Positions 2,847 to 60,323 of a stretch of DNA of 61,979 bases are shown here, in pieces. A model generated the notes under the pieces. That model made no database searches. It was not told the DNA's origin and saw only the letters and a program-made list of their open reading frames with translations. Within the stretch, counting starts at the first letter, position 1, and each line of letters starts with the position of its first letter. The DNA is taken from contig CAIKCJ010000009.1 of the NCBI GenBank assembly GCA_903825945.1, positions 1-61,979 on the forward strand, written 5' to 3'. The position numbers were made by a program, and so were the translations under genes. The DNA is from an uncultured Actinomycetes bacterium (GTDB taxonomy: Bacteria; Actinomycetota; Actinomycetes; Nanopelagicales; Nanopelagicaceae).

Positions 2847-3902
2847 TTATCGCGCCTGGTAGGTACCTTCCAAAATTGAGCCTTCCAGGCCAGTTCTACG
2901 CTCAACTACGCCACAAACCCAAGCATTCATGCCGCGGGCCGCCAGGCTACGAAGGGCCAGATCGGCGCTATCGCGGGCCACGATGGCCACCATTCCAACA
3001 CCCACGTTCCAGGTCTTCTCCATATCAGGCTGAGCCACCCCACCCTGCTGAGCCAAAAACTCCATGATCAGCGGGAGTGACCAGGTGCTGCGATCGAATT
3101 TTGCGGTCAAATGAGCAGGGATCACGCGCGCGGTATTGGCTGCCAAGCCGCCACCGGTGATGTGTGAGTAGCCGTGCAGCTTGTCCTTAAGACCACGGTG
3201 CAGGGCAAGACAATCGAGTGAGTAAATCTCGGTCGGGGTTAAGAGCGCCTCACCGAGTGATCCGCCGAGCTCTACGATCTCTTGATCCACGCGCAAGTTC
3301 TTAGTTTTGAGAATATGGCGGACCAGTGAATAACCATTGGCGTGCAGCCCAGATGCAGCCATCGCGATGAGCACATCGCCCTCTTGAACTAAATGTTCGC
3401 CGAGTAAATTATCGTAATCAACCGCACCAGTAGCAGCACCTGCGATATCAAACTCATCTTCACCAAGTAGACCTGGGTGCTCCGCGGTCTCGCCACCGAC
3501 AAGTGCTGTGCCTGCTTTCTGGCAACCGACCGCAATACCGGAAACGATCTCTGCGATACGTGTTGGAAATACTTTGCCGACCGCAATGTAATCGGTCATG
3601 AAAAGCGGTTCTGCGCCGCAGACAACTAAATCATCAACAACCATTGCAACGAGATCTTCACCAATGGTTTCGTACTTGCCCATCAGGCGAGCGATCTCTG
3701 TCTTTGTTCCAACTCCATCAGTTGATGTTGCAAGGAGTGGACGTGTGAAATTCTTCAGAGCACTCACATCGAAAAGTCCAGCAAAGCCACCGATCTCACC
3801 AATAACTTCTGGACGACGAGCTTTAGCTAAATGCGATTTCATTAATCGAACGGCGAGATCGCCTGCTTCGATATCAACCCCGGCTGCTTCGTAAGTACTC
3901 AT
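2847..3902 (-). CDS. purM: Phosphoribosylformylglycinamidine cyclo-ligase (AIR synthetase)
   Basis: 351 aa, the normal length. It converts FGAM and ATP to AIR, step five of purine synthesis, in the cytoplasm. Diagnostic stretches are STDGVGTKTEIA (about 60-71), GGETAEHPGLLG (about 136-147) and the glycine-rich SHITGGGLAANTARV near residue 245. Its ATG overlaps the purF stop by 4 nt, so the two are translationally coupled. Confidence 0.97.
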   Translation of the reverse strand: MSTYEAAGVDIEAGDLAVRLMKSHLAKARRPEVIGEIGGFAGLFDVSALKNFTRPLLATSTDGVGTKTEIARLMGKYETIGEDLVAMVVDDLVVCGAEPLFMTDYIAVGKVFPTRIAEIVSGIAVGCQKAGTALVGGETAEHPGLLGEDEFDIAGAATGAVDYDNLLGEHLVQEGDVLIAMAASGLHANGYSLVRHILKTKNLRVDQEIVELGGSLGEALLTPTEIYSLDCLALHRGLKDKLHGYSHITGGGLAANTARVIPAHLTAKFDRSTWSLPLIMEFLAQQGGVAQPDMEKTWNVGVGMVAIVARDSADLALRSLAARGMNAWVCGVVERRTGLEGSILEGTYQAR

Positions 3903-5374
3903 TCGTATCGGTTCACAATCTCGAGCAAATTTTTTCCGGCGGACAAGTCAGTTGGAATCTCAATTGGGTATTGACCATTAAAGCAGGCCGTGCAGAGCTT
4001 TGATTCGGCAATTGTGGTCGCCTCGACTAGCCCCTCGAGTGAGACATAACCAAGTGAATCTGCGCCAATAGAACGGCGGATCTCTTCTACTTCGAGTCCT
4101 GCGGCGATGAGCTCGGCGCGCGAAGCAAAGTCGATGCCGTAATAACACGGCCATTTCACTGGTGGAGATGAGATTCGGACATGGATCTCAAGCGCGCCTG
4201 CTTCGCGAAGCATGCGAACTAGGGCGCGTTGAGTGTTACCGCGGACGATGGAGTCATCGACCACAACAATGCGCTTGCCCTCAATAACATCACGTAGCGG
4301 ATTGAGCTTGAGACGAATGCCAAGTTGGCGAATAGTTTGTGAAGGCTGGATAAATGTGCGGCCGACATACGAATTCTTGACGAGTCCTGCGCCGTAAGGA
4401 ATGCCAGATTCGCGCGCATATCCAACTGCAGCAGGTGTTCCAGATTCTGGAACCGGAATAACAAGATCTGCCTCGACTGGATGTTCTTTGGCCAACTGCG
4501 CACCAAGTGCAACGCGCGTAGTGTGAACGTTGCGACCAGCAATCAACGTATCTGGGCGAGCGAGATAAACATATTCAAAGATGCAACCCTTAGGTTCTGG
4601 TGTGGCCCAGTGAGTTGAGCGCAGACCATTCTCATCGATCGCAATAAATTCTCCGCACTCAACTTCACGAACAAACGATGCACCAACGATATCGAGCGCT
4701 GCAGATTCGGAAGCAACAACCCAACCATGATCGAGTTTGCCAATAACTAATGGACGTACGCCGTTGCGATCACGCGCTGCATACAATGTGTGTTCATCCA
4801 TGAAGACCATGGAAAAAGCGCCTTTAAGTTTTGGAAGAACTGCTAACGCTGATGCTTCAAAACTCTTGCCTTCTTGCGCGGCAATCAACGCGGTCATAAT
4901 TTCGGTATCAGTTGTTGCTTGTAGGCCGTGGGCCTTTTCTTCTTCAGTAATAATTCCTGCAAGCTCTTCGGCGAGATCTCCTGTGTTTGTGAGGTTGCCG
5001 TTGTGAGCAAGAGCGAGTGTGCCGTGATTTGTGGAGCGAAGAGTTGGTTGTGCATTGGCCCAGACTGAAGATCCTGTGGTGCTGTAACGGCAATGGCCGA
5101 TAGCTAATTTTCCGGTTAGGGTCGCGAGATCATTTTCGGTGAAGATCTGAGAAACCAGACCCATATCCTTAAATACAACGATTCGTTTTCCATCAGAAGT
5201 CGCGATACCCGCGGACTCTTGGCCGCGATGTTGGAGCGCATAAAGCCCGTAAAACGTGAGTTTTGCAACCTCTTCATCAGGAGCCCAAACGCCAAAAACT
5301 CCGCACTCATCCTGAGGAGAGTGTTCTTCTTCGAAGAGCTCAAAGGTGAGCTTTCCATCCGGGCGGCGGGTCAC
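3899..5374 (-). CDS. purF: Amidophosphoribosyltransferase
   Basis: 491 aa; makes phosphoribosylamine from PRPP and glutamine, the committed step of purine synthesis. The N-terminal Ntn-hydrolase domain has its catalytic Cys at residue 24 (DECGVFGVW), preceded by a 23-residue propeptide that must be removed, as in the Bacillus type. The PRPP loop is VVVDDSIVRGNTQRALV. Cysteines in LCTACF near the C-terminus fit the Fe-S cluster of that class. It starts 4 nt inside the preceding small SCP-like gene and ends 4 nt inside purM, so it is tightly coupled on both sides. Confidence 0.97.
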   Translation of the reverse strand: MTRRPDGKLTFELFEEEHSPQDECGVFGVWAPDEEVAKLTFYGLYALQHRGQESAGIATSDGKRIVVFKDMGLVSQIFTENDLATLTGKLAIGHCRYSTTGSSVWANAQPTLRSTNHGTLALAHNGNLTNTGDLAEELAGIITEEEKAHGLQATTDTEIMTALIAAQEGKSFEASALAVLPKLKGAFSMVFMDEHTLYAARDRNGVRPLVIGKLDHGWVVASESAALDIVGASFVREVECGEFIAIDENGLRSTHWATPEPKGCIFEYVYLARPDTLIAGRNVHTTRVALGAQLAKEHPVEADLVIPVPESGTPAAVGYARESGIPYGAGLVKNSYVGRTFIQPSQTIRQLGIRLKLNPLRDVIEGKRIVVVDDSIVRGNTQRALVRMLREAGALEIHVRISSPPVKWPCYYGIDFASRAELIAAGLEVEEIRRSIGADSLGYVSLEGLVEATTIAESKLCTACFNGQYPIEIPTDLSAGKNLLEIVNRYE

Positions 5375-5685
5375 TCTGCAATCCTAATTGTTGCGGCCGC
5401 TTTCGCGAAAAGGTCAGATAAATCAGAGCGTTCACCGCTGGCCGAGATATCGCCCGCATAGAGAGCATCCGCCCAGGTAGTACTTCCGTCAATCAGAGCG
5501 AATAAAACATCAGCCGACATCTCGACAACATTGGGTGGAGTCCCGCGCGTATGTTTTGGACCAGCAACGCATTGCACCGCTGCAAAAGGTGGAATACGAA
5601 GCTCGACCGATTTACCTGGCGCGATCTGAGTGATCTCTTCCAGCACAGCCTTCACTTGGGCAAGTACCAAAGGATCGCGCGCCAT
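5371..5685 (-). CDS. Small sterol-carrier-family (SCP2-like) protein in the purine operon
   Basis: A 104-aa soluble protein. The core (SVELRIPPFAAVQC, then VVEMSADVLFALIDG and the DALYAGDISASGERSDLSDLF end) matches what actinobacterial annotations call 'sterol carrier family protein', an SCP2/MDMPI-C-like fold. It sits between purL (12-nt gap) and purF (4-nt overlap), a placement shared by other actinobacteria as far as I recall. Nothing shows lipid binding. A role linked to PurF or PurL is possible but unproven. Confidence 0.75.
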   Translation of the reverse strand: MARDPLVLAQVKAVLEEITQIAPGKSVELRIPPFAAVQCVAGPKHTRGTPPNVVEMSADVLFALIDGSTTWADALYAGDISASGERSDLSDLFAKAAATIRIAE

Positions 5686-5697
5686 CAGGATTCGCCT

Positions 5698-7920
5698 TTA
5701 ACCGAAGAGCTTTGGAAGAGTTTCGGTATGAGCCTTGCGAAGTTCATCGAGCGGAATATGAGCACCATTAATGGTCAATACATCTCCACCAGATTGTCCT
5801 AAGCGATTGATCGCAATTCCATGCTTCTCTGCCAGCGCTTTGAGCGCTGCAGCGTTATGTGGCTCGAGCGAAATAATTGCGCGACCAGGAGTCTGAGCAA
5901 AGAGTTCGGCGGCGATATCGCCAACGAATTCAATTGTTGCGCCAATATTGTGCTTGAGGGTCACCTCTGTGATCGCAGCAGCAAATCCACCATCAGAGAG
6001 ATCATGTGCTGATTCAAAGAGTGGTTGACCTTCGAGCAAAAGATTGACCAAACGTGTTTCATGGTCAACATCTGCACGTGGAGCGCTATCGCCAATCTGT
6101 CCGTGGAGGTATGCCCATTCGCTTCCGCTGAAGTTGGCATCGGTTGTACCGAGTTGGTAAATATCTAGACCAGCCTTTGGAAGTCCCACCTTGGTACGTG
6201 TGCGAACATCTTGAATTACTCCAAGCACTCCGATTACGGGAGTTGGCAAGATCGCTACTGAACCGGTCTGGTTGTAGAACGAAACGTTTCCGCCGGTAAC
6301 AGGCAGACCCATCTCCAGTGCGATATCAGCAAGCCCACGCACGGTCTCGGCAAATTGCCACATCACACCTGGATCTTCAGGCGAACCAAAGTTGAGACAG
6401 TTAGTGATCGCGAGCGGCTTTGCGCCACCCACAGCGATATTGCGGCAAGACTCAAGCAGAGCAAGCTTTACGCCTTCGTATGGATCTAGGTAAGACCAGC
6501 GGGCATTTGCATCGGTCGAGATAGCAACGCCGAGATGGCTCTGCTCATCGATACGAATCATTCCTGAATCTTCTGGTTGTGAGAGAACAGAATCACCTCG
6601 AACATATCGATCGTATTGATCTGTCACCCATGATTTGTCAGCGATATTTGGAGATGCAACTAATTTGAGGATTGCATCTTTGATCTCAGCTGGTGTTTGT
6701 GGCAGTGGAATACTGATTGGTGTGAGCCCATCGAGATAAGCAGGACGAGCCATTGGTCGGTTATAGACCGGACCATCGTGCGCGACAGTGCGAGGTGGAA
6801 CATCGACAATCAATTCACCATTCCAGGTAATGTTGAGGCGATCACCAGATGTCACTTCACCGATAACAGTTGCGGTGACATCCCACTTCTTGCAAATCTG
6901 CATGAAGCGAGCGAGCTTGGATGGCTCGATAATTGCGCACATGCGCTCTTGGGATTCGGACATCAAAATTTCTTCTGGAGAAAGCGATGGATCGCGTAGC
7001 GGCACCTTTTCGAGCTGAATATCCATTCCGCCAGAGCCACCAGATGCAAGCTCACTTGTGGCGCAAGACAGTCCAGCGCCACCTAGATCTTGAATGCCAA
7101 CAACAAGATCCTCAGCAAAAATTTCAAGCGAACATTCGATCAAAACTTTCTCGGCAAATGGATCACCGACCTGCACAGCAGGGCGCTTAGCTGACTTTCC
7201 ATCGGCAAAGGTCTCGGAAGCAAGAACAGATACGCCACCGATTCCATCGCCACCAGTCTTGGCACCGAAGAGAACAACGAGGTTGCCTGTTCCGTGCGCG
7301 GTTGCCAGCTTGATATCTGAGTGCTTCATGACGCCAACGCAAAGAGCATTAACTAGTGGGTTTCCGGCGTATGTCTCATCAAAAACTACTTCTCCACCAA
7401 TGTTTGGTAGCCCGAGGCAGTTTCCGTAGCCTCCAACGCCAGCAACAATGCCAGGCAGGACGCGACGAGTATCGGGCGCATCAGCTAATCCAAAACGAAG
7501 TGGGTCCATTACGGCAATTGGGCGAGCACCCATTGTAAGAATGTCACGGACAATGCCACCCACACCTGTGGCTGCGCCTTGATATGGCTCAACAAATGAT
7601 GGGTGATTGTGCGACTCAATTTTAAATGTGATTGCGTAGCCCTGTCCGATATCGACAACGCCAGCGTTCTCACCAATACCTACAAGCAGCGCATCGCTCT
7701 TGACAGCTTTCTCGCCAAATTGCTTGAGATGAATCTTCGATGATTTGTATGAGCAGTGCTCTGACCACATCACCGAGTACATAGCTAGTTCTGATGATGT
7801 TGGGCGACGACCCAGAATCTCGCGAATGCTCTGGTATTCGTCTTCCTTGAGTCCAAGCTCGCGCCAAGGTTGCTTGTTATCCGGAGTGCTCTGCGCAACT
7901 GAAACTGTATCGAGTGCCAT
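5698..7920 (-). CDS. purL: Phosphoribosylformylglycinamidine synthase, large subunit (small PurL type)
   Basis: 740 aa, the length of the small PurL that works with separate PurS and PurQ; the fused amidotransferase of the proteobacterial enzyme is absent. It catalyses ATP-dependent FGAR to FGAM. Diagnostic motifs are [10 protein letters not shown] near residue 53, [20 protein letters not shown] near 100, [14 protein letters not shown] and GGNVSFYNQ. The start lies 1 nt after the purQ stop. All three subunits are encoded next to each other, as expected for a stoichiometric complex. Confidence 0.97.
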
Positions 7921-7921
7921 G

Positions 7922-8593
7922 TTAGCGAGCCACCAAACTTTGTAGGATCGATGAGAAGAAAATTAAGCCATCTTCACTTGGGCCAGTGAGCGATTCGATT
8001 GCTTGCTCAGGGTGAGGCATAACTCCAACAACATTGCCTCGAGCATTTGTAATACCCGCGATGTTGTTCTGAGAACCATTGGGATTCTTATCTGCATAAC
8101 GCAAGACAACGCGGCCTTCACCTTCAAGCTCTGCCAAGGTTTCTGCGCTAGCTTGATACGAACCCTCGCCATTTTTAATTGGAATAACAATGCGTTGGCC
8201 TTGTGTGTAGCCACGGGTCCATGGGGTATTGGTGTTCTCCACCGTCACTGGCTGGTCGGTGCAGATAAAGTGAAGATCCTGATTGCGGATCAAAGCGCCC
8301 GGAAGCAAGTGTGATTCAGTCAAAATCTGAAAGCCGTTACAGATTCCAAGGACAGGAAAACCGTGCTCGGCCGCCACAATAATGGACTCCATAATCGGGG
8401 CAAAGCGCGAAATCGCACCACAGCGAAGATAATCACCATAAGAAAATCCACCAGGGAGAACGACTGCCTGAACTTCCTTAAGATCATCACTTGCATGAAA
8501 AAGCGGAACTGCTTCTCCGCCAGCTAAACGGATTGCGCGCAGCGCTGATGAATCATCGAGTGAACCTGGAAAGGTGACAACTCCAATACGCAT
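7922..8593 (-). CDS. purQ: Phosphoribosylformylglycinamidine synthase, glutaminase subunit
   Basis: 223 aa, class I glutamine amidotransferase supplying ammonia to PurL. The nucleophile is Cys85 in GICNGFQIL. His194 and Glu196 in VMPHPEQA complete the triad. [15 protein letters not shown] (47-61) is typical of PurQ. Its start overlaps the purS stop by 1 nt. Confidence 0.97.
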
Positions 8594-8838
8594 TACTTTT
8601 CGACCTTAACAACGTAAGTTTCGATAACTGGATTAGAGAGCAACTTCTCGGCTGCTGCTTCTACTTCTGCAAGTTGTGTATGAGTGGGCTCGCCATCAAC
8701 AACAATTTCAAAACGCTTGCCTTGACGCACTGACTTAGCAAAATTAAATCCAAGACGTGGCAGCGCTGATGCAACTGCTTGGCCTTGCGGATCCAAAATC
8801 TCGGGCTTAAGCATTACTTCGACGATGATGGTGGCCAT
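8593..8838 (-). CDS. purS: Phosphoribosylformylglycinamidine synthase, PurS subunit
   Basis: An 81-aa subunit that bridges PurL and PurQ. I chose the ATG at 8838 ([19 protein letters not shown]) rather than an upstream in-frame start, because the family begins there and the ATG overlaps the purC stop in a TAATG junction. KPEILDPQG and the ending [11 protein letters not shown] are typical. Confidence 0.95.
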
Positions 8839-9701
8839 TAGATGGTCCTTCCGGTCAGCAGGGTATAGGCGGATGTGTAACGCTCTTGTGTCTTCTCCAC
8901 TACCTCTTGGGGCAATTGTGGAGGCGTGCTCTTGCGATCCCAACCAGATTGCAACAGCCAATCACGGACAAATTGTTTGTCAAATGAAGCTTGGGCAACG
9001 CCTGGCTTATAAGTATCAGCAGACCAAAAACGTGAAGAATCGGGGGTCAAGGCCTCATCGCCTAAGCAGATCTTACCTTCTGCATCCCGACCAAATTCAA
9101 ACTTGGTATCAGCCAGGATAATCCCGCGAGTAGCGGCATAGTCATGTGCCATGCCATAGAGCTCAAGCGTCAGAGTGCGAAGAGTCTGGGCATCTGCGTC
9201 GCCAATGATCGAACGTGCACGATCGAACGAGATGTTCTCGTCGTGATCTCCGACTTCAGCCTTGGTTGCTGGTGTAAAGATAGATTCTGTGAGCTTGGAA
9301 CCGTCCTGAAGTCCTGCTGGAAGTGGGATTCCGGTGACCGAACCAGATTGCTGATACTCCACCCAGCCAGAGCCAGTGAGGTATCCACGCGCAACGCATT
9401 CAATCGGGAACATCTCAAGTGGCTTAACAATGACCGCCCGCTCGGCCACAACATCGGGAACGTCGGTTGAGATGAGATGGTTGGGCACACTGTCTGCAAA
9501 CATCTCGAACCAGAATAGTGAGAGCTGAGTCAGCAAAATACCTTTGCCGGGAATTGTTGTTGGCAAGATGTAATCAAATGCCGAAATTCGATCGGAAGCA
9601 ACAAGCAACAACTCGCCACGATCATTGGTGTAGAGATCGCGCACCTTGCCGCTGCGTTGGTGTTGCCACCCAGGGACCTCAATAAAAGTTGGAGTTGTCA
9701 T
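8838..9701 (-). CDS. purC: Phosphoribosylaminoimidazole-succinocarboxamide synthase (SAICAR synthase)
   Basis: 287 aa, the longer form seen in actinobacteria. It joins CAIR and aspartate using ATP. It begins near SGKVRDLYTND, and ISAFDYILPTTIPGKG, PIECVARGYLTGSGW and LADTKFEFG are diagnostic. The gene is 5 nt downstream of purB and overlaps purS by one base. No purE or purK is present here, so CAIR formation is encoded elsewhere. Confidence 0.96.
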   Translation of the reverse strand: MTTPTFIEVPGWQHQRSGKVRDLYTNDRGELLLVASDRISAFDYILPTTIPGKGILLTQLSLFWFEMFADSVPNHLISTDVPDVVAERAVIVKPLEMFPIECVARGYLTGSGWVEYQQSGSVTGIPLPAGLQDGSKLTESIFTPATKAEVGDHDENISFDRARSIIGDADAQTLRTLTLELYGMAHDYAATRGIILADTKFEFGRDAEGKICLGDEALTPDSSRFWSADTYKPGVAQASFDKQFVRDWLLQSGWDRKSTPPQLPQEVVEKTQERYTSAYTLLTGRTI

Positions 9702-9706
9702 AAGTA

Positions 9707-11110
9707 TTATCTGATCGATCCTGGGCGATAACTCGCTGCGCCAGTGTGGAGTGATGCGATCGCTTCCACGCGCTTAATAACTCGTTCGGTTTGGGCGCGC
9801 GCATCACCAGTAAATTCCAGTGGCTCTGCAAGGAGCGCTTCGAGCGCAGCACGATCCAATGGAATTCGATTATCCATTGCAAGGGCATCCAACATTGAAT
9901 TTGGTTTTCCTTCGCGAATTCCCAGGGCTGCCGCAACTGCATGTTCCTTAATAGCTTCATGCGCGACTTCGCGACCCACTCCAGCTTTCACTGCTGCCAC
10001 CAGAATTTTGGTGCTGGCCAGGAATGGCAAGAAGCGAATGAGTTCAGCGGTGATGACTTCTGGGAATGCACCAAACTCCATCAGCACTGTCATGAATGTT
10101 TCAAGTAGTCCATCAATCGCGTAGAAAGCATCTGGAAGTGCTACTCGGCGAACAACGCTGCACGAAACATCGCCCTCGTTCCACTGGTCGCCAGACATTT
10201 CTCCGACCATTGAGGCGTAGCCACGAATGATCACAGATAGGCCATTTACACGCTCACAAGAGCGAGTATTCATCTTATGTGGCATGGCAGATGATCCAAC
10301 TTGGCCAGCTTTAAATCCTTCAGTCACCAGCTCAGCTCCGGCCATCAATCGAATTGATGTCGCAAGAGATGATGGGGCAGAAGCTAGCTGGACCAATGTG
10401 GTGACTACATCGAAATCAAATGAGCGAGGGTAGATCTGGCCAGTTGAATCCAGCACACGATTGAATCCCAGGTGCGCAGCAATCTCTTGCTCTAACTTGG
10501 CATGAGCATCACTTGAACCGAGCAGATCAACTGAATCTTGTGCTGTACCAACTGGGCCTTTGATGCCACGAATTGGATAGCGCTCAATGAGTTGCTCTAG
10601 ACGTTCATAAGCGAAAAGAAGTTCTTCGGCGGCACTAGCAAAACGTTTTCCGAGTGTGGTCACTTGTGCTGCAACATTGTGAGAGCGACCAGCAATTGGC
10701 TGATCAATGTATTGAGCCGCGCGATCTGCAAGCAGAACGAGTGAGGCAACAACGCGATCGCGAACCAAAAGCAGACCGTCGCGAATCTGCATCGCTTCAA
10801 CATTCTCAGTCAGATCACGAGATGTCATTCCTGCATGGATAGACTCATATCCGGCTAAATCATTAAATTCTTCGATACGAGCTTTTACATCGTGGCGAGT
10901 GGTTCGTTCGCGAGCATCAATCGATGTCAGATCAACGGTGTTGATAACGCGCTCATAAGCTGCGATAACATCATCAGGGATCGGGTGTCCGAGGCCAGAT
11001 TGCGCGCGCATGACTGCGATCCACAATTTGCGCTCCTGAATAATCTTGGATGTAGTGCTCCAAATATCTCGCATTGCTTGCGATGCGTAACGATCAGCTA
11101 AAACGCTCAT
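9707..11110 (-). CDS. purB: Adenylosuccinate lyase
   Basis: 467 aa; cleaves SAICAR and adenylosuccinate, so it serves both IMP and AMP branches. The fumarase/aspartase-superfamily signature GSSAMPHKMN sits at 272-281, and the conserved HAGMTSRDLTEN at 92-103. Its start is 2 nt after the purD stop, which suggests coupling. Confidence 0.96.
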   Translation of the reverse strand: MSVLADRYASQAMRDIWSTTSKIIQERKLWIAVMRAQSGLGHPIPDDVIAAYERVINTVDLTSIDARERTTRHDVKARIEEFNDLAGYESIHAGMTSRDLTENVEAMQIRDGLLLVRDRVVASLVLLADRAAQYIDQPIAGRSHNVAAQVTTLGKRFASAAEELLFAYERLEQLIERYPIRGIKGPVGTAQDSVDLLGSSDAHAKLEQEIAAHLGFNRVLDSTGQIYPRSFDFDVVTTLVQLASAPSSLATSIRLMAGAELVTEGFKAGQVGSSAMPHKMNTRSCERVNGLSVIIRGYASMVGEMSGDQWNEGDVSCSVVRRVALPDAFYAIDGLLETFMTVLMEFGAFPEVITAELIRFLPFLASTKILVAAVKAGVGREVAHEAIKEHAVAAALGIREGKPNSMLDALAMDNRIPLDRAALEALLAEPLEFTGDARAQTERVIKRVEAIASLHTGAASYRPGSIR

Positions 11111-50040: not shown

Positions 50041-50625
50041 ATGCCAAAAATCTCGGCCCCAACCCTGGCTCTCCATCGCGAGAGTCGCCGGCAAGAGCTC
50101 ATCGCTGCTGCGCTGGAGTTGGCGATGGATGAAGGAGCAAGCGCGGTCTCTGTCTCGGCAGTAGCCAAGAAGGCTGGCCTAGCTCGTACCTCTATTTACG
50201 AATACTTTGCATCTAGCGCAGATTTGATTGCCGACCTTGTGATTGAAGAGCTTCGCTATTTCAACTCACGCCTTACTCAGGCCATTTCTGTGACCCAAGA
50301 TCCATTTGAACAGATCGCACTCTGGCTTGAAGAAGGTTTGCGTTATGCAGCCGATGGCCGACATATGCTCGTTAAGTCTTTGAACGCAATCGGAACATCA
50401 CAATCACGTAGTGAAGATATTGCGCAAGAGCACCGCGCGCTCCTTGCACCGCTCCAAGGAGCAATTCTTGCAACGGGTGTAGCTGATCCACGCACAGCTG
50501 GCACGCTGCTGGCTGCGATATCTGATGCAGCAAGTATGCGCATTGATGCTGGCGCAGATCCAGACGCGCAGATCGCTAGCGCTCTTACATTCGCACTAGC
50601 GGGTCTGCGAGCCTTAGTTCGTTAG
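50041..50625 (+). CDS. TetR-family transcription regulator
   Basis: 194 aa from the ATG at 50041 with a strong AGGAGG about 11 nt upstream; a GTG 12 codons earlier is less likely since it would hide the ribosome site in coding sequence. The HTH lies at about 30-50 (VSAVAKKAGLARTSIYEYF). The C-terminal ligand domain is helical. It is divergent from azoR, so it likely controls it in response to a quinone-like compound. Confidence 0.92.
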   Translation: MPKISAPTLALHRESRRQELIAAALELAMDEGASAVSVSAVAKKAGLARTSIYEYFASSADLIADLVIEELRYFNSRLTQAISVTQDPFEQIALWLEEGLRYAADGRHMLVKSLNAIGTSQSRSEDIAQEHRALLAPLQGAILATGVADPRTAGTLLAAISDAASMRIDAGADPDAQIASALTFALAGLRALVR

Positions 50626-50632
50626 AGTTTTT

Positions 50633-51073
50633 TTACTTTGCTGCGAAGGTAAAAGGAATTACCTGATCTTGTGAGCGATCTGCTGCAGCTGTGTGATCGT
50701 TAGAGATATAGAAAACACATGTTGTGTGAACACAATCTGCATTTGTGAAGTATGGGACTGGGTGTTCTAGCACCTTGCCTGCTGCTGATGTTGCACCCTG
50801 TGCGATATCAGCTTTAGCAGCGCTTACCCACGCTTGAGTTGTCTGATCTGAATCACAGACTGTAGGAGCAGCACCCTTAGTTGTTGGAGCCATGCACTCT
50901 TGAATGTATAGGCCATTCTTTGCTGGCATCTTTGCAAACTTAAATGTAACGACGCCGCCTTTTTGAGCAATGTTTTTGAGTGGTGTTGCTGTAACAGTTG
51001 CCTTTGCGTTAGCAAGAGGCGCTGCTGCAATCACAAGAGCGATTGAGAGACCTGCGATCATCTTCTTTTTCAT
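50633..51073 (-). CDS. Secreted protein of neocarzinostatin-like fold, heme-locus paralogue 1
   Basis: 146 aa. Signal peptide MKKKMIAGLSIALVIAAAPLANA. The mature part is beta-rich with two cysteine pairs (IQECMAP...TVCDSD and NADCVHTTCVFYI), the arrangement of neocarzinostatin, whose second pair sits in DCTTAACQV. It ends with DHTAAADRSQDQVIPFTF. No enzyme motif. It lies just before a similar gene and a heme-type ABC transporter. A role in binding heme or another iron ligand outside the cell is inference. Confidence 0.75.
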   Translation of the reverse strand: MKKKMIAGLSIALVIAAAPLANAKATVTATPLKNIAQKGGVVTFKFAKMPAKNGLYIQECMAPTTKGAAPTVCDSDQTTQAWVSAAKADIAQGATSAAGKVLEHPVPYFTNADCVHTTCVFYISNDHTAAADRSQDQVIPFTFAAK

Positions 51074-51106
51074 TGTTTTCCTCTTTTATCTTCTGTGTAT
51101 AGGGGG

Positions 51107-51619
51107 TTATTTGGAAAAATTGAGTGGAACATGCGCATCGTGTGTGCGATCTTGGGTGCGTAAGTGATCTGCGCGAATGTAGACGGCACAAGCGGTTTTG
51201 CGGCAATCAAGTGTGCCTATCATCGGAGATACCTTGAGATTGACCTTAAATGTGCCACCGGCACCGTACGGGATTGCGAGGCCACGACCATAGCTTGGTG
51301 GGTTAGACGAGATCCAAAAGCTGGCGGCAGATGCACCTGATTGATTTACTCCGCCACCACATGGACTTGGAAGAAGTGTTGGCGCAACCACTTTGCACAT
51401 TGCCACATAAATTCCGACAGTTGTATCAAATCCCTTTCCGGTGACTACCAATGTATCGCCACTTTTTACTCCACTGACTTTTGAGACTGTGAGTGTCTGG
51501 CCCTGAAGGCCAACTGTGGAGCTGGGGTTGCTTGCTGCAAATGTGGCTGCTGTACTTGTTGCGGTGAGCGCCAGAAGTGCGGTGAGCAATGCAGCGCTGC
51601 GAACTAATTTCATATCCAT
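51107..51619 (-). CDS. Secreted protein of neocarzinostatin-like fold, heme-locus paralogue 2
   Basis: About 170 aa from the ATG at 51619 (or 51613). Signal peptide MKLVRSAALLTALLALTATS ending in A-rich sequence. The core begins LTVSKVSGVKSGDTLVVTGKGF, a typical Ig-like opening of the neocarzinostatin family. The cysteine pairs are YVAMCKVV...LPSPCGGG and TLDCRKTACAVYI. It ends DHLRTQDRTHDAHVPLNF, closely like its paralogue. It is divergent from the binding-protein gene (77 nt between starts), so both may share one control region. Confidence 0.78.
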   Translation of the reverse strand: MDMKLVRSAALLTALLALTATSTAATFAASNPSSTVGLQGQTLTVSKVSGVKSGDTLVVTGKGFDTTVGIYVAMCKVVAPTLLPSPCGGGVNQSGASAASFWISSNPPSYGRGLAIPYGAGGTFKVNLKVSPMIGTLDCRKTACAVYIRADHLRTQDRTHDAHVPLNFSK

Positions 51620-51696
51620 AATGTACTTGGCGCGTGCGATTCTTGCTCCGACACTTTTCTCACCACTGTCGGTCAAGACAGTGCGATAATTATTTC

Positions 51697-52629
51697 ATGA
51701 TGCGCCAGAGTCGGTTATTCGCAATCTCCACGCTCATAGCCACAGCTCTTCTCTCGTTATACATAACACCGAGCCAGGCAGTGTCGGCTAAAAATGTGAC
51801 CAATATTTCTGACACAGATATCGCACTTCCGATTATTCATAGTGGTGAAACCCCGAAATACAAGCGAGTCGTAGCACTAGCCGATGGCAGTGCAGAAATT
51901 ATTGCCGCACTCGGTTATAAAAACATTTTGGTAGGACGCGATATCGCCTCAACCATGCCAGCACTCGCTCAAGTACCTATCGATGAATCTGCCATGCAGG
52001 TATCGTCAGAAACGGTTCTCTCGCAAAGCCCTGATCTCATCTTTATCGATTCGAATACGAGCCCAGCTACTGCACTTGCGACCTTCAAACAATCGCACAT
52101 CCCGATGATCACAATTAGCGACTCTTACTCGCTCAGTGCAATTGTGTCTAAAGAGGTGGCGATCGCAAACGCTTTGGGTGTTCCTAAAGCTGGCGTGCTC
52201 TTGGCATCGCAAGTTCAAGCACTGCACTATCCAAGTACTGGCATCAAAGTTGCATTTCTCTACCTGCGTGGCACCGCTTCTATCTATTTGATCGGTGGAG
52301 CGGGATCTGGCGCGGACTCATTACTAAAAGCCACCGGCTTTACCGATGTGGGTGCTGCGCAACTTAAACTCCCTTTCAATGCGCTTACCTCTGAAGAGTT
52401 AATCAAACTCCAACCGGATGTTCTGCTCCTGATGACTAAGGGACTTGTTTCGGTGGGTGGCATTAATGGATTGGTGCAGATTCCCGGAATCGCCCAAACA
52501 CCCGCAGGTAAGAATCGCGCCGTAGTAACGGTGGATGACTCACTCCTGCTTTCATTTGGTCCTAGAAGTGTTCCCATGGCGCGAGCACTTCGTCCCCTTC
52601 TCATCGCTGCAGCGAAGAAGAGTGCGTAA
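51697..52629 (+). CDS. ABC transporter heme/metal-chelate-binding protein (HmuT-like)
   Basis: 310 aa from the ATG at 51697. The signal peptide has no lipobox cysteine. The family (PF01497-type) pattern is clear: KRVVALADGSAEIIAALGYKN, LVGRDIAST and LIGGAGSGADSLLKATGFTDVG. This resembles heme-binding HmuT of corynebacteria more than B12 or siderophore proteins, but ligand choice is inferred. It is followed 3 nt later by a FecCD permease. Confidence 0.85.
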   Translation: MMRQSRLFAISTLIATALLSLYITPSQAVSAKNVTNISDTDIALPIIHSGETPKYKRVVALADGSAEIIAALGYKNILVGRDIASTMPALAQVPIDESAMQVSSETVLSQSPDLIFIDSNTSPATALATFKQSHIPMITISDSYSLSAIVSKEVAIANALGVPKAGVLLASQVQALHYPSTGIKVAFLYLRGTASIYLIGGAGSGADSLLKATGFTDVGAAQLKLPFNALTSEELIKLQPDVLLLMTKGLVSVGGINGLVQIPGIAQTPAGKNRAVVTVDDSLLLSFGPRSVPMARALRPLLIAAAKKSA

Positions 52630-52632
52630 CCG

Positions 52633-53625
52633 ATGACGCTCAAAACTAAGAAAATCATGATTTATATCGGCGCCTTACTAGTGATGTTGGCGCTCTTTAT
52701 TCTCTCGCTCACTACCGGAATTGTTCATATCCACGAATCGCTTTGGTCGCTGATCGGCAAGAACAACGTTGATGCAACTACTGTCTGGCAGCTGCGCTTT
52801 CCACGCGCACTTGGCGCAATCATTATCGGCGCAGGGCTGGGAATAGCTGGTTCAATCGCACAGGGAATATTCCGCAACCCGCTAGCAGAGCCAACTCTGA
52901 TTGGTTTATCAAGTGGAGCAACGCTCGGCACTATCGCTGTCATAGCTACTGGAGTGGGGACATTCGCAACCCGCACAATCGTTGCGGCCGCAGTGCTCGG
53001 CGCAGCTCTTACCGCACTACTCGTGCAATGGCTAGCACCAGCCCGTGGCTTTGGATTCTTGCTCACCGGTATTGCACTCTCCTCAATTCTGACCTCTGTT
53101 GCAGGTTTATTAATAAGCATGTCCGCCAAACCAGGAATTCAATCTCTTTCGTTCTGGGACTTCGGATCGCTCTCACTTCTCAACAACTCAACAGTTGGAA
53201 TGATTGCGCCATATATTGAGGTCGGAATTATCACGGCCTTCTTTGTAGCCAGACGTTTAGATATCTACTCACTTGGCGATCACTCAGCTCATTACATGGG
53301 AGTAAATCCACGCCGGCTTCGCTTGTGGGCTGTACTAGCTCTAGCATTTTTGGTTGGCGCATCAGTAAGTGCAGTTGGCTCTATTGCATTCTTGGGACTC
53401 TTGGTTCCACATATCGTGCGATTGATGATTGGGCCAGCGCATCGTCGCATGCTCTCGCTTAGCGGTTTAATTGGAGCGTGTGTTCTCCTGCTTGCAGATT
53501 TATTGGCCCGCACACTCTTTGAGCCGAACGAAATTCCGTTAGGGCTTCTTACATCGCTCTTAGGCGCACCTGCTCTTATTGTCTTGTTGCGCTTAAAGCG
53601 AGAATCATGGGTGAGCCATGATTGA
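52633..53625 (+). CDS. FecCD-family ABC permease (HmuU-like)
   Basis: 330 aa, about nine to ten hydrophobic segments. RFPRALGAIIIGAGLGIAGS, RNPLAEPTLIGLSSGA and GSIAFLGLLVPHIVRLMIGP are the standard FecCD blocks, the last being the contact with the ATPase. It imports heme, siderophores or cobalamin. It overlaps the ATPase gene by 8 nt. Confidence 0.93.
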   Translation: MTLKTKKIMIYIGALLVMLALFILSLTTGIVHIHESLWSLIGKNNVDATTVWQLRFPRALGAIIIGAGLGIAGSIAQGIFRNPLAEPTLIGLSSGATLGTIAVIATGVGTFATRTIVAAAVLGAALTALLVQWLAPARGFGFLLTGIALSSILTSVAGLLISMSAKPGIQSLSFWDFGSLSLLNNSTVGMIAPYIEVGIITAFFVARRLDIYSLGDHSAHYMGVNPRRLRLWAVLALAFLVGASVSAVGSIAFLGLLVPHIVRLMIGPAHRRMLSLSGLIGACVLLLADLLARTLFEPNEIPLGLLTSLLGAPALIVLLRLKRESWVSHD

Positions 53626-54220
53626 GATTAAGAACGTTTCATTTAGCCGTGGCAAGAAATTGGTACTGATTAATTTTTCTGCAACTTTCAATACTGGAGA
53701 AGCAGTGCTCGTCACTGGCCCCAATGGCTCTGGCAAGACAACGATGCTTCAGTTAATTGGTGGCTTATTGCAACCAGATTCTGGTGAAATCGCTATCGAT
53801 GGGAAGAAGCTGGCAGAGCTAAACGTTAAAGAGCAAGCTACTTTGCGCTCGGTCGCCCCAGCCCGTCGCTCTTTTGCGCTGGCATTCACGGTGGCCCAAG
53901 TCTTGGAGTTTGTGCCTAAAAAGAGGCGAGCTACGCATATTCCACTCGTTATTGACTCACTTGGACTCACAGAGCTTCTAGGTCAGAATGTCACAGAACT
54001 CTCTACGGGCCAGATCGAGCGAGTCAGCTTGGCCTTGGCCTTGAGCCAAGAAGCTGAGTATTACTTGTTAGACGAGCCGTTTAGCGCACAAGATCAGTTC
54101 TATACAGAGGCAATAGTTAATCTATTAACGCAGATTAAAAAGACGAAGGGCGTCCTCGTTATTAGCCATAACCAGGACGCCCTTGCGAAATATTTCGATA
54201 GAGAGATTAGCCTCGCTTAG
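53618..54220 (+). CDS. ABC transporter ATPase (HmuV-like), short form
   Basis: 200 aa, clearly shorter than the 255-270 aa usual for HmuV/FecE. Walker A GPNGSGKTTML and Walker B YLLDEPFSAQD are intact. The signature is LSTGQ instead of LSGGQ. The region between Walker A and the signature is compressed: a Q-loop equivalent is hard to see (RSVAPARRSFALAFTV). It overlaps the permease start to end and runs 14 nt into the convergent helicase gene. Confidence 0.88.
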   Translation: MIEIKNVSFSRGKKLVLINFSATFNTGEAVLVTGPNGSGKTTMLQLIGGLLQPDSGEIAIDGKKLAELNVKEQATLRSVAPARRSFALAFTVAQVLEFVPKKRRATHIPLVIDSLGLTELLGQNVTELSTGQIERVSLALALSQEAEYYLLDEPFSAQDQFYTEAIVNLLTQIKKTKGVLVISHNQDALAKYFDREISLA

Positions 54221-56278: not shown

Positions 56279-57001
56279 CTACTTAATAACCGACCTGCGC
56301 CATTGGGCATAACGCTGCGCGAGCTCGTCGTTAGCCTCAATACTTGCTGGCAGATTCGTAGCGCCGAGCGCACGCGCCAGCAAGAGATCGGCGAACTCTG
56401 GATTGCGTGCAAGCACAGGCCCGTGAAGGTAGGTACCAAATACGTTGCCGCTCACAGCGCCATCAACGCCAGCTATGCCATCAACGCCAGCTATGCCATT
56501 GCCGTTACCTGCAATGACCCTGCCGAAAGGGGTCGCATCGCTACCGAGCGTTGTGACGCCGCCATGATTTTCAAAACCCGTCAGTGGCTCAGCGAAAAAT
56601 TTAGACTTTATAGCAATATCACCAACTAATCTGCGAGAGCCTGGCGCAGTCGTGACATCAAGTAACCCAAGACCTTCGACAGTTTCGTCGCGAGAGATGA
56701 ATGTCGAGCCAAGAATTTGAAATCCTGCGCAGATTGCCAGGACTACGGCGCCCTTCTTGACTGCCTTGTTGAGCGCCATCTTCTTTTTCATGGCCTCGAG
56801 TGAAAGAGCTTGCGCAGCATCTTCGGCACCGCCGAGCAGATAAATATCACCAGTACTTGGGAGCTCATCTGGATATGAAATATCGGTGATGCGAGCCTTG
56901 ATACCAGCCAGCTTGGCACGGAAGGCAAGTACATCTGCATTGCCACGGTCGCCATACGTACCCAGGAGTTCGTTGTGAATGCGAATAATTTCTAGCATCA
57001 C
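56279..57001 (-). CDS. gatD: Lipid II isoglutaminyl synthase, glutaminase subunit
   Basis: 240 aa, class I amidotransferase of the CobB/CobQ-like type. The nucleophile is Cys91 (LAICAGFQILG), and His193 is in GTYLHGPVL. It frees ammonia from glutamine for MurT, which amidates the D-Glu of lipid II. Residues 169-180 contain GIAGVD twice, from an 18-bp duplication in a surface loop. It overlaps murT by 4 nt. Confidence 0.93.
   Translation of the reverse strand: MMLEIIRIHNELLGTYGDRGNADVLAFRAKLAGIKARITDISYPDELPSTGDIYLLGGAEDAAQALSLEAMKKKMALNKAVKKGAVVLAICAGFQILGSTFISRDETVEGLGLLDVTTAPGSRRLVGDIAIKSKFFAEPLTGFENHGGVTTLGSDATPFGRVIAGNGNGIAGVDGIAGVDGAVSGNVFGTYLHGPVLARNPEFADLLLARALGATNLPASIEANDELAQRYAQWRRSVIK
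56462..56497. repeat. 18-bp perfect tandem duplication within gatD
   Basis: ATCAACGCCAGCTATGCC occurs twice without change. It stays in frame and duplicates six residues (GIAGVD) near residue 170. Confidence 0.95.
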
Positions 57002-58119
57002 ATCACCAACCCAAAGAAGGCGGTGTAAGCAGCCAAGACTGAGACTTCGTTGCTGCGAGTCAGAGGTAGCGCTTGCTCAAATGTTTCTACAACAACCGAT
57101 TCGATCCCCTGCACGTGTAAGCGATAAGCCATATCGAGTGCACGCTCACCACAGACAATCACGTTCTTACCTTTAAGTGCCGCGAAGGAGACATCCCAGA
57201 GCCATGACGTATCAATGCCATCAACTTGGCGGGCGTTGAGGATAAGAATGACATCGCTCTTATGTTGACCAGCTAGGGCTTCGGTCCAGGAGGCAGGATT
57301 TTTTGTGAGACGAATATAAGCAGTCTTCTCGCCATAGTTTTTGGTTACAGAGCGTTCGAGCTCTTCTTGACTAAATTCAATCGGAGGTGCACCTAGCGCT
57401 TCTGCCACAACATTAGCCAGAGTCGCATTGCGATAAGCAGCGTTTCCCTTTGGGAATTTGCGATCTGTAATCTTATTTGTCAGCCCACAGACGCATGAAT
57501 ATTTATCGCCCACCCACACTAAGTATTTGCCGCAGCGAGGACAGACTGCGCCATCTTGATGCTTGCGTCCACCGAATGACACACGAACAACGTTATGAGC
57601 TTGGGCCATCGCATAGTTGATATATGGGTCATCGATATCACCGATGAATAGTGTGTTTTCGGCGTCGGCGCACTCAACGTGCCAGCGATCGGCCACTCGC
57701 TTCACTTCATGCATACGATGAAGCTGATCTCGAGTGAGGTTGAGCAGTAAGACAATTTCAGGATCGCATTGCGCAATCACTGATGGTAAGTGAAGTTCAT
57801 CAATCTCGAGAACTGCATACGGCGCTTTACTCATCAGGGCATTTGCAGCGCCCCATGAAAGATTAGAACCCGAGCCACTTGTTGTTACTTCACCGAGTTG
57901 ACGAACTATCCCTGCAACGGCTTTAGTTGTTGAGGTCTTACCGTTAGTGCCAGAGACTAAGACGATTTTCTTCTTGGCAGCCAGCAACGCAATTGCATCA
58001 GGTTGAAACTTCAGGAGAATTCGTCCAGAGAGAGTCTCGCCCTTGTTACCGACAGCCTTTGAGGCAGCGCTAGCCGTTTTGGCTACAGCGATTCCTAGCA
58101 GCAGTCGTAGATCGGGCAC
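56998..58119 (-). CDS. murT: Lipid II isoglutaminyl synthase, Mur-ligase subunit
   Basis: 373 aa from a GTG. The Mur-ligase ATP loop is VSGTNGKTSTTKAVAG (54-69). A zinc ribbon with four cysteines (CPRCGKYLVW...YSCVCG, about 193-211) is the MurT insertion. A C-terminal DUF1727 domain completes it. With GatD it makes D-isoglutamine in peptidoglycan. The N-terminus is hydrophobic (LLLGIAVAKTASAASKAVG), fitting a membrane-near site where lipid II is made. Confidence 0.94.
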   Translation of the reverse strand: MPDLRLLLGIAVAKTASAASKAVGNKGETLSGRILLKFQPDAIALLAAKKKIVLVSGTNGKTSTTKAVAGIVRQLGEVTTSGSGSNLSWGAANALMSKAPYAVLEIDELHLPSVIAQCDPEIVLLLNLTRDQLHRMHEVKRVADRWHVECADAENTLFIGDIDDPYINYAMAQAHNVVRVSFGGRKHQDGAVCPRCGKYLVWVGDKYSCVCGLTNKITDRKFPKGNAAYRNATLANVVAEALGAPPIEFSQEELERSVTKNYGEKTAYIRLTKNPASWTEALAGQHKSDVILILNARQVDGIDTSWLWDVSFAALKGKNVIVCGERALDMAYRLHVQGIESVVVETFEQALPLTRSNEVSVLAAYTAFFGLVM

Positions 58120-58136: not shown

Positions 58137-60323
58137 TTATTTAATAGTGATGACACGAGAATAGATAACTTTGTTATCAAATTCGACGATCACCAAGTTG
58201 TCTCCTGCTTTTACAGTGTTAGAACCGACCTTGGCTGGGGCACCATTGATAGTGACAACTACTGCGCCACCTTTGGCCGCAACCTTGATCGCATGGCCAG
58301 CACTTGAGACTGTGACAACCGGAACGACTGCTGAAGAAGCCTTCTTTACTACTGCTTTTTTGGTCGCAACCTTTTTAGTGGTGGACTTTTTAGTGCTGCT
58401 CTTTTTCACAACTGGCTTAGCAGGCTTTGTTTTCGCTGGTGCTGGTGATGCAGCCGCCGCTGGCTTTGGGGCCGCACTCACAGTGACCGTAAAACTTACT
58501 GTCGCATCACCGAAGGTAGGTGTTGCAGCTTGCGTGGCAATAACTACTGCCTTGCCTGCTGCGACCGGAGTAATGCTCGAACCATTGACCGTGATCACCG
58601 AACTATCTGCGCTTTGGAATGTCCACGCACCCGTTGAATCTGATGATGGGTTAGCTATAGAGGCTGCTGCTGCTCCAGCAACAAGAGAGAGATTAGGCAG
58701 AGATCCAACTGTAGGCGCAGGCAAGACAGTGAGCACTGCTTGCACAGTATTGGATTGTCCATATTTGCCTGCGGGAGCTTGGGTTGCAGAGATCATGGTC
58801 TTGCCAGCTTTGATACCAACTAATACGCCATTAACAAGGCTTGCAATTGTTGGATCCGCTACTGAATAACTCCATGTACCGGTGGAGTTTGAGGTTGGGT
58901 TAGGGATAGAAACAACTTTGTCACCAACTCCAATTGTGATTGGAGCAAAGGTTGCGAGGGTTGGAACTAATCCAGCGACAGAGACGGTGAATGTTATTTT
59001 GCCAGCAAGGTAAGCACCAGCTGCTGCCTGACTTAGGGTGATTGTTGCAGTACCTGCATTGCCAAAAGCGAGAGATAGTCCATTAACAGAAGCGATTGTG
59101 GAATCTGACGAGCTCATCGTCCATGCACCAGAAGATGGTGATGTTGGCGGAGTAATAGTTCTAGCAGGATCTCCAACTACTTGGCTTAAGTTAGGTAGGA
59201 CCGTATAGGTAGGGGCCACGTTGACGACGAGTGCAACCGTTTGTGGAGCAGATAAGCCGTAGTTTCCAGAAGCCTGCTGCGTTGCCGTGATCGTTGTTGT
59301 TCCGGCCTTTACTACCGTGAGGAGGTTTCCAGAGACGCTCGCAATTGTTGGATCGCCAACGCTAAAACTCCAAGCACCTGGTGAGTTCGATGTTGGGTTT
59401 GTGAGAGTGAGTGTATTTCCTACGATCGATCCAAGTGTGTAAGCAATTGACGCAAACGCTCCCACTGTAGGCGCAGCAGCCGTGACCGTAACTGTCATTG
59501 TTGCTCGTGCGCTGCTATAGCCATTTACAGGCGCTTGATAAGCGGTGATAGTTGCCTGACCGACGTTGAGTGGAGTCAGGGTTGATCCGGAAATGCTGGC
59601 GATGCTTGAATCAGATGAAGTGAATTGCCAGGTGCCACTACTTGTCGATGTTGGGCTTATGAGAGTGACCGAAGAGATGCTGTCTTTTGCAATCGTGATA
59701 TCGGTAAAAGTTCCGACAATCGGCGTAATGGCGGTGATGGTTAAAGTAGTTGTGGCAGTAGTCGACTTCCAATTGCCTGTTGCATATTGGGTCGCATTAA
59801 TCGCCACTGTGCCGGCATCATCGAGTGTCACTGTGGAGCCAGAGACGGTAGCGATTGGGTGTCCCGCAACTGAATTGTTACTCAGACTGTAGAACCAAGA
59901 GCCGTTTGAAGTTGATACCGGGGCTGGGATCGTGAATGTTCCAGCAGAGAGTGCAGCGTGAAGAGGTGCCCAGGCACCAATTACTGGAGTTCCTGGTTGG
60001 ACAATCAGAACAGCCATTCGAAAATCGCTATTGAAACTTCCGGATGCTTGTTGAGTATAGGTAATCTGAGTTGAGCCAGCTTTGAGTAAGGTAAGAGTGA
60101 GCCCATTTACTGAAGCGATTGTTGGATCAGCTACTGAGATCACCCAAGTGCCGGGTGAGTTGGATGTTGGCGGGGTGAGCGTCACAGTTTTTTGATCAAG
60201 GCCAACTGTTGTCGTTTTAACTGTGCCTAGGCGTGTAGCCGTAGCGAAAGATGCTGGTGCCTGAGTAGCGACTAAGCCAATTGTAGAAATGACAATGGCG
60301 GCGCTGAAAATAATTCTTCTCAT
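58137..60323 (-). CDS. Large secreted protein with seven Ig-like repeats and a Lys/Ala-rich tail
   Basis: 728 aa. A signal peptide (MRRIIFSAAIVISTIGLVAT) precedes seven repeats of about 80-90 residues. Each has a TxPTSNSPGxWxFSVxDPTIASVxG core, a KAGTTTITATQ-like strand and a turn before the next. This is a bacterial Ig-like (BIG-type) array. The last 110 residues have Lys/Ala/Thr-rich KSSTKKSTTKK and then a small beta region. No sortase motif or TM anchor is seen, so it may bind the wall through its cationic part. It is convergent with nothing and sits just downstream of a putative permease gene. Confidence 0.82.
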   Translation of the reverse strand: MRRIIFSAAIVISTIGLVATQAPASFATATRLGTVKTTTVGLDQKTVTLTPPTSNSPGTWVISVADPTIASVNGLTLTLLKAGSTQITYTQQASGSFNSDFRMAVLIVQPGTPVIGAWAPLHAALSAGTFTIPAPVSTSNGSWFYSLSNNSVAGHPIATVSGSTVTLDDAGTVAINATQYATGNWKSTTATTTLTITAITPIVGTFTDITIAKDSISSVTLISPTSTSSGTWQFTSSDSSIASISGSTLTPLNVGQATITAYQAPVNGYSSARATMTVTVTAAAPTVGAFASIAYTLGSIVGNTLTLTNPTSNSPGAWSFSVGDPTIASVSGNLLTVVKAGTTTITATQQASGNYGLSAPQTVALVVNVAPTYTVLPNLSQVVGDPARTITPPTSPSSGAWTMSSSDSTIASVNGLSLAFGNAGTATITLSQAAAGAYLAGKITFTVSVAGLVPTLATFAPITIGVGDKVVSIPNPTSNSTGTWSYSVADPTIASLVNGVLVGIKAGKTMISATQAPAGKYGQSNTVQAVLTVLPAPTVGSLPNLSLVAGAAAASIANPSSDSTGAWTFQSADSSVITVNGSSITPVAAGKAVVIATQAATPTFGDATVSFTVTVSAAPKPAAAASPAPAKTKPAKPVVKKSSTKKSTTKKVATKKAVVKKASSAVVPVVTVSSAGHAIKVAAKGGAVVVTINGAPAKVGSNTVKAGDNLVIVEFDNKVIYSRVITIK

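Follow-up and report, generated by a model that had tools for sequence, protein, structure and literature searches.

The closest described counterpart of the locus analysed here is the corynebacterial heme-import system HtaA/HtaB–HmuTUV, in which a binding protein with Tyr and Arg ligand residues (HmuT), a FecCD-type permease and an ATPase are joined by genes for dedicated extracellular partners. To our knowledge, the neocarzinostatin fold, found in the secreted, two-disulfide apoproteins neocarzinostatin, macromomycin and C-1027, has hardly any described role other than carrying antitumour enediynes, and a text search of the open literature found no paper joining ‘neocarzinostatin’ with ‘HtaA’. 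In HmuT of Corynebacterium glutamicum, heme is bound via His141 and Tyr240, and Arg242 is bonded to Tyr240 (PMC4926363). The NEAT-domain (Isd) relays of Bacillota work in a comparable way, with carriers in the wall or near the membrane that feed an ABC importer (PMC12494546 and general knowledge). C. glutamicum also encodes ThiX, an accessory lipoprotein of the bcc–aa3 supercomplex with an unresolved soluble domain and an unknown function (PMC8795186).

Here we describe a predicted heme importer that is encoded beside two secreted proteins, P1 and P2, with a predicted neocarzinostatin-type (NCS) fold. The window, a stretch of 61,979 nucleotides, is one of the 51 contigs of a 1.26-Mb genome of an uncultured member of the Nanopelagicaceae. 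As originally predicted, it carries a five-gene block (P1, P2, HmuT, the FecCD permease and the ATPase) at 50633–54220 (Table 1), and other Nanopelagicaceae records bear the same block. The locus resembles the corynebacterial system in its HmuT ligands, permease, ATPase and dedicated extracellular partner genes, but the window lacks an HtaA (CR) domain and encodes free rather than anchored proteins. P1 and P2 lie in tandem on the minus strand, 33 bp apart, so that the arrangement first called divergent is so for the pair relative to hmuT and not for P1 relative to P2. The listed reading frame of P2 starts too early (TTG, 51676); a start at the ATG at 51613, with its signal peptide, matches relatives. 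Signal peptides open both P1 and P2 and, as far as the sequences can be read, a membrane anchor is absent from both. The neighbouring genes seen at the locus have heme-import and housekeeping functions. At some distance (58137–60323, minus strand) lies a gene for a secreted 728-aa protein with repeated Ig-like units and a Lys-rich tail, adjoined by a MurT/GatD-like pair (56279–58119).

Table 1 Features of the P1–P2–hmuTUV locus in the window.
Feature	Coordinates	Strand	Assignment	Basis
TetR	50041..50625	+	TetR-family regulator beside P1	PF00440 2.5e-11; position conserved
P1	50633..51073	-	secreted 146-aa protein, predicted neocarzinostatin fold, short form	ORF, AlphaFold2, structure alignment
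P2	51107..51613	-	secreted 168-aa protein, predicted neocarzinostatin fold	ORF with revised start, AlphaFold2, conservation
Inverted repeat CCGACA-N13-TGTCGG	51648..51672	no strand	P2–hmuT divergent promoter region, probable operator	
HmuT	51697..52629	+	predicted HmuT-type heme-binding protein	homology and ligand residues
HmuU	52633..53625	+	FecCD-family permease	PF01032 1.4e-79
HmuV	53618..54220	+	ABC ATPase	PF00005 1.1e-24

The original prediction had given both secreted proteins a two-disulfide neocarzinostatin-type fold and had asked for structure prediction. AlphaFold2 models built with alignments from related loci reached a pLDDT of 89.0 for P1 and 86.9 for P2 (92–97 in the P2 core). 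Structural alignment with VIA-align placed NCS-type chains in the top ten rows for each model, with neocarzinostatin, macromomycin, C-1027 and actinoxanthin as the top matches. The best match of P2 had a Z score of 11.9 (2.2 Å over 103 residues), and its NCS-type rows (Z 9.8–11.9) stood above the next unrelated row (8.3); for P1, the best match was 2cbq (Z 11.5, 2.9 Å over 102 residues), with NCS-type rows at 8.8–11.5 against 7.4. Foldseek alone gave no significant match for P1, and VIA-align ranked NCS-type chains first among the same candidates. Placing P1 by Pfam or NCBIfam alone failed, as no PF00960 match was found for it in Pfam, and P2 was reached only under the cut-off (16.4 bits against a threshold of 25), which one P2 relative from Nonomuraea passes at 25.8. 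In a profile–profile comparison, P1 and P2 match with a probability of 99.8%. All four cysteines are kept in 59 of 59 P2 sequences; of 56 P1 sequences, every one has the second pair and 44 have the first, and the window’s P1 has both (Cys60/73 and Cys114/119). The models thus confirm the predicted NCS-type fold, and the two-disulfide pattern holds as well.

Besides its cysteines, P2 has invariant Y69, W100, Y108, R147, D149, H150, R156 and D159 (59/59). The last five of these residues sit past the second disulfide and, with Y108, could be candidate holders of heme and its propionates. The Tyr, Trp and Cys common to all NCS forms may serve only to hold the fold. In P1, H127 is kept in 47/56 sequences and is not universal; the C-terminal region of about 180 aa in long P1 forms matched no Pfam family. 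P1 and P2 share with the enediyne apoproteins their fold, two disulfides and secretion, but differ in their low identity (about 20–25%, below the Pfam cut-off), their position beside a heme importer and an extra invariant DH...DR..D loop. Unlike the Isd relay proteins, they have a different fold, with no NEAT match in Pfam scans of either.

P2 is tightly linked to HmuT. Counting strong P2 matches, 68 of the 151 genomes surveyed from the order carry both and the other 83 carry neither. A sample of 395 genomes from the class contained 73 P2-family genes, of which 62 lie no more than 3.3 kb from hmuT; these 62 places span 58 genomes and nine of ten families, with the genes mostly divergent and elsewhere in a same-strand operon. 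Chance linkage is ruled out by these counts (68/68 against 0/83 genomes, and 62/73 near hmuT). Among related loci, the TetR–P1–P2–hmuTUV block stays intact where the outer genes differ. Most of the unlinked P2-family places come from a single family whose tandem NCS pair lies elsewhere, and the remainder had no HmuT match on the same contig. A Streptomyces-like family (L186, L187 and L191) is a genuine exception: its tandem NCS-type genes lie far from hmuT and form a separate branch. The original prediction would have been contradicted by a pair found mostly away from heme loci; for P2, the opposite holds.

That prediction had further suggested that a different fold may fill the place of HtaA. 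The HtaA family (PF04213) was found in 0/151 genomes of the order, including that of the window, although the C. glutamicum control was detected, and PF04213 was not found in P1 or P2 by Pfam. In larger actinobacteria, both kinds of partner share one locus. The surface protein facing the P2–hmuTUV operon has the architecture HtaA–WxL in Actinoplanes and HtaA–NCS–WxL in Micromonospora, in which hhalign matches the fused middle NCS domain to the profile of P2 at 99.1%. Actinomadura has an NCS–WxL protein and a second NCS protein beside P2–hmuTUV, with no HtaA nearby; in Nonomuraea, NCS–WxL lies beside P2–hmuTUV and HtaA–WxL downstream. Longer HtaA/NCS mixtures also occur next to P2–hmuTUV in these bacteria (in representatives, Pfam was used to verify the HtaA matches and part of the WxL matches; the others were found with models built from those). 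P2 of larger actinobacteria ends in a C-terminal transmembrane anchor, which the acI forms do not have. Among 126 genomes of the class with HmuT, 25 have P2 at the locus together with HtaA, 33 have P2 without HtaA, 55 have HtaA only and 13 have neither HtaA nor P2 at the locus. The fusions, swaps and genome counts indicate that NCS-type and HtaA domains behave as partners or substitutes, and the idea of dedicated extracellular partners where relatives use HtaA is borne out to this extent. At one locus (L183, genome G276; 3461–10199), a reading frame some 2,600 codons long, encoding several HtaA domains and weak NCS-type domains, lies beside P2–hmuTUV.

We consider it likely that this locus encodes a heme importer in which secreted P2, and less surely P1, relays heme to HmuT. 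HmuT would capture heme outside the membrane and HmuU and HmuV would carry it inward; P2, and with less certainty P1, would act before HmuT by taking extracellular heme or heme-bearing material and passing it on, in the role that HtaA has in corynebacteria. We infer both that the NCS-type cleft would hold the heme and the direction of the transfer. P2 (the more surely) and P1 are probably extracellular parts of the importer, probably with heme carriage to HmuT as their task. An alternative to which we give a minor but real share of the probability is that P1 and P2 are docking proteins for hemoproteins (catalase, cytochromes or hemoglobin-like proteins) or wall-tethering modules, with heme passing directly to HmuT. 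The linkage of P2 to hmuT fits this equally, the NCS fold is an Ig-like β-sandwich of a kind that often serves protein contacts (general knowledge), P1, P2 and the fused forms have no universal metal ligand and the first disulfide is lost in some P1 forms. The docking role is harder to reconcile with the invariant Y108, R147, D149, H150, R156 and D159 of P2, most of which lie in the loop that follows the second disulfide, and with the planar hydrophobic ligands carried by known members of the fold, whose ligand-bound forms are among the structural matches.

The top PDB matches of HmuT are heme-binding proteins (5gj3, 6.5e-37; C. glutamicum HmuT 5az3, 1.7e-32), and further matches are other hemin-binding proteins. 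Tyr189 and Arg191 of the window’s HmuT correspond to Tyr240 and Arg242 of the C. glutamicum protein, and the Tyr/Arg pair is kept in 57/57 homologues. At residue 100, the position of C. glutamicum His141, 51/57 homologues have His; the window’s HmuT and those of five close relatives have Met there, and the clade with Met100 is the same one that has short P1. The second axial His is a feature of C. glutamicum HmuT and is not general to heme-binding proteins of this kind. The FecCD permease and the ABC ATPase are in one operon with hmuT. The best NCBIfam models are the heme ABC ATPase PRK13548 for HmuV (118.8 bits, under the cut-off of 261) and, among permease models, BtuC for HmuU (201.6 bits, under the cut-off of 334); HmuT and HmuV both score under the NCBIfam equivalog cut-offs. 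These homologies and ligand residues support the predicted identification of HmuTUV as a heme import system, in agreement with the ‘heme-type’ transporter first proposed. Although the BtuC match and the Met at the His ligand position could suit an importer for another iron chelate or tetrapyrrole (siderophore, coproporphyrin or cobalamin) captured by P1 and P2, we regard this as improbable, given that the solved HmuT relatives are mostly named as heme-binding, that the Tyr/Arg pair is universal, that Met is workable as a heme ligand and His is present in most homologues, and that HtaA heme-binding domains sit at the same locus in relatives.

The tie of P1 to heme is weaker than that of P2. Stand-alone short P1 genes, some with a TetR gene, occur away from hmuTUV in several genomes, with no consistent neighbour genes among the loci compared, and the seven genomes whose only matches are weak and P1-type have no HmuT. 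That P1 is exclusive to the heme locus is ruled out, since short P1 groups (100/99) with these stand-alone copies. The same gene set was thus recovered in other genomes as far as P2 is concerned, mostly beside hmuT, and less strictly for short P1; the ‘pair’ is better described as P2 and a less exclusive P1. The stand-alone short P1 loci comprise L092:6537–7001, L192:6503–6949, L196, L197, L198, L199, L200 and L202; most of their genomes have no HmuT, and the neighbours vary (glnA, an NhaA-like antiporter and others).

ThiX (7qhm chain M) is the only clear sequence relative of P1 and P2 found among solved entries (5.4e-9 and 4.6e-7), and the three have a DC...C and a DH motif in common. That P1 and P2 are general accessory proteins of the envelope or respiratory chain, comparable to ThiX, and share no more than their regulation with heme import is the least probable reading and a very unlikely one: this relationship and the short P1 and Streptomyces-like tandem pairs away from heme genes speak for it, but P2 tracks HmuT exactly and remains linked in rearranged loci, and neither protein has the lipid-anchor Cys of ThiX near the end of its signal peptide. 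The soluble domain of ThiX itself appears to be NCS-type; neocarzinostatin goes unmentioned in the text of the ThiX paper (PMC8795186).

Bacteria of this order appear to need external heme. In our survey of one step of the heme pathway, hemC was missing from the window’s genome; across the order, 141 of 151 genomes lack it, and only one of the ten genomes with hemC has HmuT (p = 0.02). The lack of hemC in the window’s genome is in line with the published heme auxotrophy of Nanopelagicales (PMC10202952). About half of the order (~74/151 genomes) has neither hemC nor HmuT; this locus is therefore not the sole answer to the auxotrophy, and another heme uptake route must exist. If P2 and P1 do relay heme, they would give the neocarzinostatin fold an ordinary physiological function, extend the known classes of heme carrier by one and provide a route to heme for very abundant freshwater actinobacteria unable to make it. 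The chances seem to us evenly divided that NCS-type domains are a new structural type of hemophore in Gram-positive bacteria, on a par with NEAT and HtaA/CR domains and used across the Actinomycetes beside or instead of HtaA, and that they supply heme to some of the freshwater Nanopelagicales, which are abundant and heme-auxotrophic.

A single conserved inverted repeat, CCGACA-N13-TGTCGG, lies between the divergent P2–P1 and hmuTUV gene sets, in the P2–hmuT intergenic region; it is 24 bp upstream of the hmuT start codon (ATG) and is the sole exact site in the window’s genome. With no more than one mismatch, it was found in 44 of 58 related loci, as against 2 of 1,160 random windows. The repeat is a probable operator, and the TetR-family protein encoded beside P1 is the natural candidate for its reader; a TetR gene accompanies P1 in stand-alone modules too.
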